The notes below the pieces were generated by a model. The model had not been told where the DNA came from. It saw only the letters and a program-made list of their open reading frames with translations, and did no database searches. The translations under genes were made by a program, and so were the position numbers. A stretch of DNA of 64,000 nucleotides, from the NCBI RefSeq assembly GCF_009831215.1, contig NZ_WUTW01000004.1, positions 310,001-374,000 on the forward strand, written 5' to 3'. Shown here in pieces: positions 48,393-51,385 of this stretch (positions within the stretch are counted from its first letter, which is position 1; every line of letters begins with the position of its first letter). Source of the DNA: Actinomadura rayongensis. GTDB taxonomy: Bacteria > Actinomycetota > Actinomycetes > Streptosporangiales > Streptosporangiaceae.

Positions 48393-48694
48393 GATGCTGC
48401 CCTCCTGTACGGCGCGCCGGAATCGAATCCACTTCCGGCCACAGCGGGTCTACCAGGCTCCGCTGCGACACTCCATGCATTGGATTGCACATCTTCCGGC
48501 GAGCAGCTCGTCCTTCCGAACGATTTTCACCCGTACAGCCCTCCTGAACTGCCGATCAGGCGCCGGATGCTACCCCGGGCGAGCGAGGCACCAACATCCA
48601 CCCCTGCACGCTGCCTCGACCGTCCGCGAACACGCACTGGCGGTCGGTGCAGGAACGCACTGCGACACGTCGATTCAACCAGTGTTTCGGAAAT
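48393..48694. other. Intergenic stretch without a recognisable gene
   Basis: About 300 bp between two minus-strand genes, noticeably lower in GC than the flanks. Open frames are short and not protein-like. Apart from the ribosome-binding site of the secreted protein gene near 48400, I see nothing. Confidence 0.4.
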
Positions 48695-49051
48695 CTAGAC
48701 CAACAGACATCGACTGGCGATTGCCATCTTCGGATGGACACATATTTTCAAGTCGATCATCGACGTGCCCGTCCTGAACTCAAGCGCGATACCATATGAC
48801 GATGAATCGGACCACAGGCGAAAGAGCTCTGCACCCTCATAAAAAATATCAAGGTTCGGCCCGTGCGCTTGGTTCAACCGCAACCTGACCGACCTCTCCA
48901 CGACATCGTAGGAAAGGTCGAGCTCTTCACCCGACCCGCCCACCAAACGGATCGCGCGCGTGAATTCACCAGTCCCGGATGCGCGCGGCTCGACGCCCAG
49001 GGCGACAAGAACCTCCTCATCGGAAGGCACGACGAACTCAGAGCGACCCAT
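48695..49051 (-). CDS. Small hypothetical protein
   Basis: A 118-residue acidic protein: MGRSEFVVPSDEEVLVALGV, then beta-strand-like segments (TRAIRLVGGSGEELDLSYDV, VERSVRLRLNQAHGPNLDIF, YGIALEFRTGTSMIDLKICV). The ATG at 49051 has AAAGGGG upstream. It resembles small immunity-type proteins in size and composition, but no family was recognised. It ends a run of minus-strand small genes with tight spacing. Confidence 0.6.
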   Translation of the reverse strand: MGRSEFVVPSDEEVLVALGVEPRASGTGEFTRAIRLVGGSGEELDLSYDVVERSVRLRLNQAHGPNLDIFYEGAELFRLWSDSSSYGIALEFRTGTSMIDLKICVHPKMAIASRCLLV

Positions 49052-49086
49052 CGAAAACCCCTTTCGAGCTGATGAGGGCCGGTCCC

Positions 49087-49182
49087 TCACTCCTCGTCAC
49101 CGACGACGACACGCTGATACTCGTCTCCCGTGTCGAAGAACCGATCAATATACTCGTTTTTGCTCAACGAACCTTCCGTCAA
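49087..49182 (-). CDS. Possible 31-residue small protein
   Basis: The TTG at 49182 follows a perfect AAGGAGG at six bases spacing and opens MTEGSLSKNEYIDRFF, ending QRVVVGDEE. Acidic, soluble, too short to classify. The strong ribosome-binding site and its place in a tight gene series are the only support. Confidence 0.4.
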   Translation of the reverse strand: MTEGSLSKNEYIDRFFDTGDEYQRVVVGDEE

Positions 49183-49194
49183 AATCACCCTCCT

Positions 49195-49332
49195 TCAGAA
49201 CAGCAGTCCGCTCATTTCGGGCGGGGGCGCCGTCGGCCCCACCTCGTCCAGACCTTCCGGAGCAGCCGGAATCAGTCGTCGGACGGACGATTCCAGTCCA
49301 TCCTCACTTTCTGCAACTGCTCCGTGATCCAT
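49195..49332 (-). CDS. Possible 45-residue small protein
   Basis: An ORF from the ATG at 49332 (MDHGAVAESEDGLESSVRRL) to a Pro-rich end (PTAPPPEMSGLLF). It overlaps the 3' end of the frameshifted gene upstream by about 60 bp, and its stop touches the AAGGAGG of the next ORF. No ribosome-binding site is visible, so coupling would be needed. Confidence 0.3.
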   Translation of the reverse strand: MDHGAVAESEDGLESSVRRLIPAAPEGLDEVGPTAPPPEMSGLLF

Positions 49333-49659
49333 GCACGAGTTTCGGCGTCGGAATTACTCCAGAGGTAGCTGAGCGGCCGATTCGCAGCCTCCCAGCCCAG
49401 CCCAGCCCGGCCGCATCATGAGCGGCACGGTTCTGCGACTCGCCACCGGAAGCCGTGCACAAATCCCCGCCAGAAAATGAATTCGATCCAAAGTCTCCCG
49501 ACGCTCACGACCGCCGTTGGACGGCGAAGACAGCGCCCCGATCTCCCTCAGCGCCCTAGTGACAAGTCCGCCAGAAAGTCGATACTCATCAACTGCGGTC
49601 GGCCTTCGCCAAGTCCGGAATCGCCGGAACACCACCACTCCTCCAGTCTCTTCCGTCAA
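49272..49659 (-). pseudogene. Hypothetical gene frameshifted by a pentanucleotide repeat
   Basis: The TTG at 49659 follows AGGAG and opens TEETGGVVVFRRFRTWRRP, reading sensibly to SRRTVPLMMRPGW. There GGGCT is repeated three times, and the frame then runs into a stop at 49354. In the other frame after the repeat, coding resumes: EAANRPLSYLWSNSDAETRA, then WITEQLQKVRMDWNRPSDD to a stop at 49272. Removing two repeat units (10 bp) restores one ORF of 125 residues. So the present allele encodes a truncated protein. The family is unknown; it may be phase-variable or simply broken. Confidence 0.65.
49391..49408 (-). repeat. Pentanucleotide repeat (GGGCT)3
   Basis: On the plus strand CCCAG occurs three times exactly, followed by CCC. 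It lies inside a coding region and its copy number sets the reading frame: one copy gives an intact gene, three copies do not. Confidence 0.8.
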
Positions 49660-50505
49660 TCAACGATCTCCTGGGATCGACGCCGAAGACAATGCGCCAA
49701 AATGGGCGGCGAAGTGTTCAATAAATGCGCGCGACCGCTCACGCATTGCAGGATGCCGAGACTGTGCCATGGACCAGAGCGCGGCCAAACTGGCCACCGC
49801 GCCGTCACGATCCCCGACTAAGGCGCATGCGATGGCCAACTTCCGTCGGCGATCCAATGGCTTCTTGTCATGCCACATGAAACGAAGCACGTCGTCCACC
49901 GAACGAAATTCATTGAAGAACGGCCAGCCGACGCGCATCACGTCGGATTAAATTCGACTGCCGAGCGTTTCGCCACCCACTCCCGGCAGAACACTCCACC
50001 TTTCGTCAACTTCCCCGCCTTGTTCACAATGCAGATCCACGACGCTTCTTCCGATGGTGGCGACATATTTGGCCACATCGGGCGGCAGTGCCAGAAAAGG
50101 ACCTTCCAACCGCGCCACTTCGGGCCACCTGACGGCTACCGCCGGAAGGAACATCGAGCCGTCCGAGCAGGTTTCAGGGCTGCCGAGGCCGATCTGGTAG
50201 ACGATCGTCTCCTGCTGCTGAAGCTGGAACGAGTCGGGGCGCTCATCCGCCCGGCTCCAGCCTGCGCCTACCAGCCGGCCGCCAACATGACGGCGTACCT
50301 CGTCGATCACGGACACCAACGGGAACACCGCCAGAGACACCGTCTGCGCGGAGGAAGCTGTTTCACGCGCACCCCATCGAATCCACCGAAGCCACATGCA
50401 TCTCCAGGCGCCTGGTTCGCTCGATACTTTTACGAGGCACTGGATCACCTTGTTCTGGCCGAGAGTCGCGCTCCGCACTCGTCGGTCATTATTCAGCCAT
50501 GGCAA
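49660..50505 (-). pseudogene. Hypothetical gene interrupted by an in-frame stop
   Basis: One continuous frame on the minus strand broken only by TAA at 49948-49950. The first part includes RLVGAGWSRADERPDSFQLQ, TIVYQIGLGSPETCSDGSMF and VDERWSVLPGVGGETLGSRI. Directly after the stop it resumes as SDVMRVGWPFFNEFRSVDDV, then DRRRKLAIACALVGDRDGAV. The layout loosely recalls DUF4304-like proteins, but I cannot assign it. The 5' start is uncertain (TTG at 50505 or later). A GTG/ATG just after the stop could allow a separate 93-residue product. Confidence 0.5.
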
Positions 50506-50707
50506 TGCGGGATCGGGGGCGAGCCCGGCTCACGTTGGCATCATTGAGGTGGCCCGCTGTCCGCGCAAGGGATCGCCAACGGCCGAGCGGAATGCCGGGC
50601 GTGCCGTAGCGACCGCTCATCGTGTTCCAGCGGTTCGCGGGTGATCGAGGTTCGTCCGCGCCCGGCAGGGTGCGCGGCGGCGGACTGCCGGGACGGGACG
50701 GGATGGG

Positions 50708-50780
50708 TGGGGCTGGCCGGACTCGAACCGACGACCTACGAGGTGTAAGCTCGCCGCGCTACCAACTGCGCCACAGCCCC
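50708..50780 (-). tRNA. tRNA-Val (TAC anticodon)
   Basis: The minus strand folds as a cloverleaf: acceptor GGGGCTG/CAGCCCC, D-arm GCGCAGTTGGTAGCGC, anticodon loop CTTACAC (anticodon TAC) and T-loop GGTTCGAGTCC. Discriminator A; CCA is not encoded. The plus-strand 331-bp gap around it (50506-50836) holds no gene. Confidence 0.95.
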
Positions 50781-50836: not shown

Positions 50837-51385
50837 TCAAGGGGCGGCCGGGGTGTAGGTCGTGTGCAGGACGCCCGTCGTGAAGGTCTTCTGCTGCGTC
50901 AGGGTCAGCGGGTGGGTCTCGGTGTCGGTGAAGAGGCGTGCGCCCTTGCCCACCACGATCGGGTGGATCAGGAGTTCCAGGCGGTCCAGGAGCTTTTCGG
51001 CCAGGAGCCAGCGAACGAGCGTTGCGCTGCCGGACATGCCGATGTCGCCGGGCAGGGACGACTTCAGGGTGCGGAGCTCCTCGGCGGCGGTGGCGCCGGG
51101 GACGATCGTTGTGTTGGACCAGGTCGCTTCGGTCAAGCTGTTGGAGACCACGTACTTGGGAATCTCGTTGATGAAGGCGGCGAAGGGCTCGTCGGCGCTC
51201 TGCTGCGGCCAGTACTGGGACCACTCGTCGTACATGGTGCGGCCCATGAGGAAGGCGTCGTAGGTCTTCATGCCCGCGCCGATCACCTCCCCCATCTCGT
51301 CGTTGAAGTAGGGGAAGTGCCACTGGTCGGGGCGTTCCACGACGCCGTCCAGCGAGATGAAGAAGTTCGCGACGATCTGTCCCAT
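50837..51385 (-). CDS. Dihydrofolate reductase-family (RibD C-terminal-like) protein
   Basis: A 182-residue reductase-fold protein: MGQIVANFFISLDGVVERPD, DAFLMGRTMYDEWSQYWP, KYVVSNSLTEATWSNTT, GDIGMSGSATLVRWLLAE, LHPIVVGKG-like LIHPIVVGKGARLF. This is the DHFR/RibD-C family common in actinomycetes, distinct from true FolA. It probably uses NADPH, on an unknown substrate. The ATG at 51385 has a CAGGAG site. It is divergent from a TetR gene across 107 bp. Confidence 0.85.
   Translation of the reverse strand: MGQIVANFFISLDGVVERPDQWHFPYFNDEMGEVIGAGMKTYDAFLMGRTMYDEWSQYWPQQSADEPFAAFINEIPKYVVSNSLTEATWSNTTIVPGATAAEELRTLKSSLPGDIGMSGSATLVRWLLAEKLLDRLELLIHPIVVGKGARLFTDTETHPLTLTQQKTFTTGVLHTTYTPAAP

Follow-up and report, generated by a model that had tools for sequence, protein, structure and literature searches.

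A frame change at a GGGCT array in a small gene of Actinomadura rayongensis, most likely an ordinary one-base indel beside a G-rich repeat

A small gene on the minus strand of a stretch of 64,000 nucleotides of Actinomadura rayongensis (hereafter, the window) changes reading frame at a perfect array of three GGGCT units; an intact homolog from another genus aligns with both of its halves, and the part downstream of the array is itself intact. We interpret this as a recent indel of one net base beside the G-rich repeat, either an ordinary pseudogene mutation or an assembly indel, rather than as a copy-number switch, and we give this reading a probability of about 0.72.

The array and the two halves of the gene

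Three features on the minus strand define the frame change:

49391 to 49408, minus strand: (GGGCT)3 followed by GGG, a perfect pentanucleotide array of 18 bases
49354 to 49659, minus strand: ORF of 101 aa with a TTG start, the first two thirds of the gene, aligning with residues 2-73 of the homolog L104
49272 to 49415, minus strand: open stretch in an offset frame, 47 codons plus a stop, the last third of the gene, aligning with residues 71-110 of L104

On the minus strand the array reads as three perfect GGGCT units and then GGG (CCCAGCCCAGCCCAGCCC on the plus strand), and this 18-mer occurs as a single exact copy in the 6.87 Mb assembly. It is a tandem repeat within a reading frame and its unit is not a multiple of three, as in repeat-mediated phase-variable genes. 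The 101-aa ORF (49659 to 49354) passes through the repeat, leaves the homologous frame there and ends at a stop at 49356-49354. The frame one base ahead of it is open from 49415 to 49275, with a stop at 49274-49272, and is reached either with any 3n+1 units (one, four) or by a single-base change. The first-pass annotation had placed (GGGCT)3 inside a small gene whose protein is truncated by the three units, and had proposed that one unit would carry the frame on for about 40 more residues to a stop. The location and the frame arithmetic were both confirmed: the 101-aa frame does stop soon after the repeat and, judged by frame, the one-unit extension is right as well. The annotation did not mention four units or a single-base change as other routes into this frame.

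The nearest intact relative (L104/L125 in genome G162) is a 130-aa ORF from the same family of organisms, in another genus. In phmmer comparisons with the window's six frames, residues 2-73 of L104 matched the first frame (E 8.3e-14) and residues 71-110 matched the second (E 1.4e-10), the last L104 residue (110) aligning with the last but one of the window. A profile of six other members, built without the window sequence, recovered the tail (E 1.5e-7) and the first part (E 8.7e-4), with no other match below E 1 in any of the six frames. Because an independent homolog matches both halves, the downstream frame is genuinely coding. Further, because L104 spans both frames to the homologous end, the broken small gene is real, with a single frameshift at or beside the repeat parting two otherwise intact halves.

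Further downstream decay had been named as the sign of an ordinary pseudogene and was looked for in the tail. Neither such decay nor a further lesion was seen, and the tail is open to the homologous end, which is compatible with a recent event. GC content by codon position, which was left out as proof of coding, was 0.725 at third positions in the tail, which fits coding, and 0.60 in the first part, which is not clearly coding. Neither the 101-aa ORF nor L104 matched a curated family in Pfam, NCBIfam or PADLOC.

Length changes at the array and chance expectation

The position of the shift was determined by frameshift-aware alignment:

49392, minus strand: one net extra base, with a position that is not resolvable within the G run

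The alignment to L104 placed one extra base at 49392, at the edge of the array, and alignment to the more distant L007 also gave +1 at 49392; the aligner covers shifts of one or two bases, not of whole units. The residues PGWAG are common to L104 and the window, where they are encoded by the repeat itself, and the PGW-to-RP stretch measures 22 bases in the window versus 21 in L104. With the L104 alignment anchored on PGWAG, there is no codon gap from PGWAG to the next conserved RP. This anchor is a single homolog (L104), other members being seen without PGWAG at that place. On this alignment, one net base would be the simplest history, by parsimony and not as proof.

By arithmetic, the PGW-RP distance is 12 bases with one unit and 27 with four. 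The one-unit state, proposed earlier as the "on" state, is not supported: it would shorten the PGWAG-RP stretch by three codons and take away part of PGWAG. Judged from these lengths, it is the poorest fit among the states, and four units would be the credible "on" state. With four units an allele would be two codons longer than L104, and on losing one unit it would show the same net +1. Counted by hand, LPI to RP spans 23 residues in L104 and likewise 23 with four units, versus 21 in the net +1 version, and the length of this linker varies in the family (LPG to RP, 25 residues in L007 and 21 in L009). Since unit loss leaves the same net +1, the LPI-RP length fits four units and the linker is variable, a four-to-three unit change is a live rival of the one-base event. 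When anchored on PGWAG, however, a history by unit change needs two length changes versus one.

The expected frequency of such arrays was assessed in 464 kb, made up of the window and another 400 kb from its contig. This sequence held eight perfect pentamer arrays that reached 15 bases or more, the GGGCT array being the longest. Simulated sequences of the same length contained 3-7 arrays at first order (5 runs), 3-10 at fifth order (5 runs) and, under a third-order Markov model (40 runs), a mean of 6.1 with a range of 2-12; an array of at least 18 bases arose in 12 of the 40 third-order runs. Pentamer arrays of this kind are thus near chance genome-wide and not exceptional. Simulations at the composition of the surrounding low-GC island (48501-50650) gave an array of at least 15 bases in 9 of 3000 and one of at least 18 bases in 0 of 3000; measured against the base composition around it, the GGGCT array is unusual.

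The protein family and the genomic surroundings

When the 101-aa ORF was compared with 149 close relatives (its own genome included), one weak match besides itself was obtained (G042, E 6.5e-4), from which a family of domains, each about 110 residues long, was traced. In the order, at least 55 of 345 genomes were matched in a profile search, the window's own included; both halves of the window's gene were part of the profile and 13 candidates were scored in each genome, so that 55 is a lower bound. The proteins carry a CHNLPG-like motif and an RPMxW...RAW motif in one branch, and members include L005, L006, L007, L083-L087, L104, L130 and L131, among others. No match was found in Pfam for the four members tested or in NCBIfam for the three tested (E 0.1). 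The family is uncurated and actinobacterial, and its copies are often fragmentary.

Apart from the window's own, the profile search returned 64 rows, counted by hand, of which 40 covered the profile nearly whole and without a stop and 24 were partial or had a stop; the rows include weak matches, matches at the ends of contigs and pairs of pieces that belong to one gene. The family commonly has broken copies. Alignment of four other broken copies gave two clear single-base shifts, one in-frame stop (G164) and one loss of similarity (G220, for which the shifts called were not trusted). In two other species of the same genus, a +1 shift (G047, locus L010) and a -1 shift with a possible +1 near the end (G042, locus L003) were observed, neither at a tandem repeat, and these single-base shifts fall at other places than that of the window. 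Arrays of a unit of 4, 5, 7 or 8 bases in three or more copies were found in 0 of 53 distinct family stretches, a set that includes fragments, in places holds more than one stretch per gene, and contains L104 as the sole close relative.

With L104 as the query, 20 of the 345 genomes of the order were matched, among them the window's own and G162; the best of the others reached E 3.2e-15 and 43%, and a second close intact relative was not found among these 345 genomes. The same query matched three Streptomyces plasmid records, with more distant family members; two plasmid members were inspected, one of which adjoins a recombinase-family gene and the other of which lies one gene away from such a gene. 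No confirmed relative was obtained in genome contigs or viral contigs with L104, which also had no match in phages, nor in genome contigs or plasmids with the 101-aa ORF. The 40-residue tail alone matched 35 of the 149 genomes at E 0.1 (its own included), mostly weakly; this list was dropped as a description of the family, the L024 and L025 matches sitting in much longer, unrelated-looking ORFs. Two weak matches in the phylum (G450 and G683) were unconvincing on translation and were likewise dropped.

The broken gene lies in the following surroundings:

48500 to 50650, no strand: low-GC stretch, GC about 56-65% against 74% for the window
49660 to 49941, minus strand: ORF of 93 aa upstream, abutting the broken gene, with no family above the cut-off (DUF5955 at E 0.034, below the cut-off)

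The low-GC stretch adjoins a tRNA-Val gene (50706-50780), beyond it GC remains at 61-70% to about 51550, and it looks acquired. A search with its DNA in 148 other genomes, two candidates being scored per genome, gave three matches, all of 61 bases or less, and there was no match to plasmid records. The stretch carries small unassigned ORFs; the 93-aa upstream ORF and a 185-aa ORF each had one weak match besides themselves. Nothing significant was found when the 93-aa and 119-aa window proteins were compared with L125 by phmmer, and shared gene order is unsupported. Just outside the tRNA-Val gene, at 50689-50703, another pentamer (CGGGA on the plus strand) forms a perfect array of three units, and an ORF at 50837-51385 on the minus strand contains a RibD_C (reductase) domain (Pfam, E 6.7e-21). 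Promoter- and terminator-like sites were uninformative.

Precedents and rival explanations

Short pentamer arrays are known to switch genes in other bacteria. In Haemophilus influenzae hsdM, the four-to-three change of GACGA units is described as occurring at a high rate, equivalent to that of much longer tetranucleotide tracts, and for another gene of this species two strains are reported to carry two units, while a third strain has three and is out of frame (PMC2651432). The mod genes of meningococci are reported to hold tetra- and pentamer tracts that range from 3 to 37 repeats, and the mutation rate of meningococcal opa is given as 0.007 per month at five or fewer repeats versus 0.16 at nine or more (PMC7157529). 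From these pentamer precedents, three units alone therefore neither prove nor exclude switching. The first-pass annotation had further considered such switching rare in actinobacteria, a statement that needs care, as phase-variable tandem repeats have been reported in Mycobacterium tuberculosis; these are promoter repeats, not coding ones (PMC12817950).

Like hsdM, the window has a coding pentamer array, with few units, where the frame changes. The hsdM gene varies among strains and has a measured switching rate according to that source (PMC2651432), whereas for the window a single allele is known and no array was found in the relatives scanned. Likewise, opa has coding pentamer repeats that change the frame, but in the account cited five or more units occur in 83% (63/76) of the genes, which encode a surface protein, in contrast with three units and a role that is not assigned here (PMC7157529). 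A parallel may also be drawn with the "pseudogene" and "H-pseudo / Error" classes of GeneTack as outlined in PMC3711429, with which the window has in common one homolog-supported frameshift in one genome and no conserved shift site seen; it differs from the singleton pseudogenes presented there in having a short tandem array at the shift and an undecayed tail (PMC3711429).

Phase variation by slippage of the pentamer, with four units (or one) as the on state and three as the off state, would account for a perfect array located exactly at the frame change, where 3n+1 units give the second frame, for a tail conserved to the homologous end and for a total linker length that equals that of L104 with four units. 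The net +1 would also result if a four-unit allele lost one unit, and both the four-to-three changes of hsdM at a high rate (PMC2651432) and the meningococcal mod tracts, which are listed from 3 repeats upwards (PMC7157529), provide precedents. Set against this are the two events needed instead of one on the PGWAG anchor, the lack of such an array in any of the 53 family stretches and the small number of units, given the lower opa rate stated for five or fewer repeats (PMC7157529). We consider slippage unlikely overall. Of the earlier proposal, the frame change at the repeat with coding sequence downstream stands, being borne out by the matches of L104 to both halves, and copy-number switching is disfavoured by the net +1 on the PGWAG anchor and by the family stretches. 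The fuller claim, namely a four-to-three pentamer switch of a small gene in a high-GC actinobacterium, within a low-GC island next to a tRNA and absent from the related species searched, is marginally less probable still. If true, it would represent a coding-repeat phase-variable gene in an actinobacterium, outside the classic pathogens.

A sequencing or assembly error in this assembly of 15 contigs, in which the true genome would differ by one base in the G run and the gene would be intact, agrees with a net change of just one base within a G-rich repeat, with an intact tail and with the absence of any other lesion seen. Copies of the family are broken in other genomes too, however, which favours real decay, though some of these may be errors as well; an error is doubtful, yet a more serious contender than slippage. 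Programmed +1 ribosomal frameshifting could in principle yield the full protein from the present sequence, as the second frame runs one base ahead and shares an overlap with the first at the repeat, but in L104 both parts are read in a single frame, and the family's other two clear shifts fall elsewhere, which makes it highly improbable.

In the preferred reading, a gene of an uncurated actinobacterial family would carry one recent net one-base frameshift at the edge of a short G-rich repeat, and the portion of that repeat that encodes PGWAG would be ancestral coding sequence. Such arrays being near chance genome-wide speaks for this reading; the array being unusual for its own island, and the tail showing no further decay, speak against it. 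The product would be truncated or the gene dead, and the cause would be an ordinary indel in a G-rich run, arising either by real mutation or by sequencing or assembly error; a real indel has by itself slightly less than an even chance. The repeat, the frame change, the intact homolog and the intact tail are observed; from them we infer the one-base event, its fixation and the absence of switching.

Taken in this way, the locus most probably holds an ordinary broken gene. What it offers besides is the uncurated protein family behind the gene with the GGGCT array, and an example of how one intact relative can test the claim of a switch.
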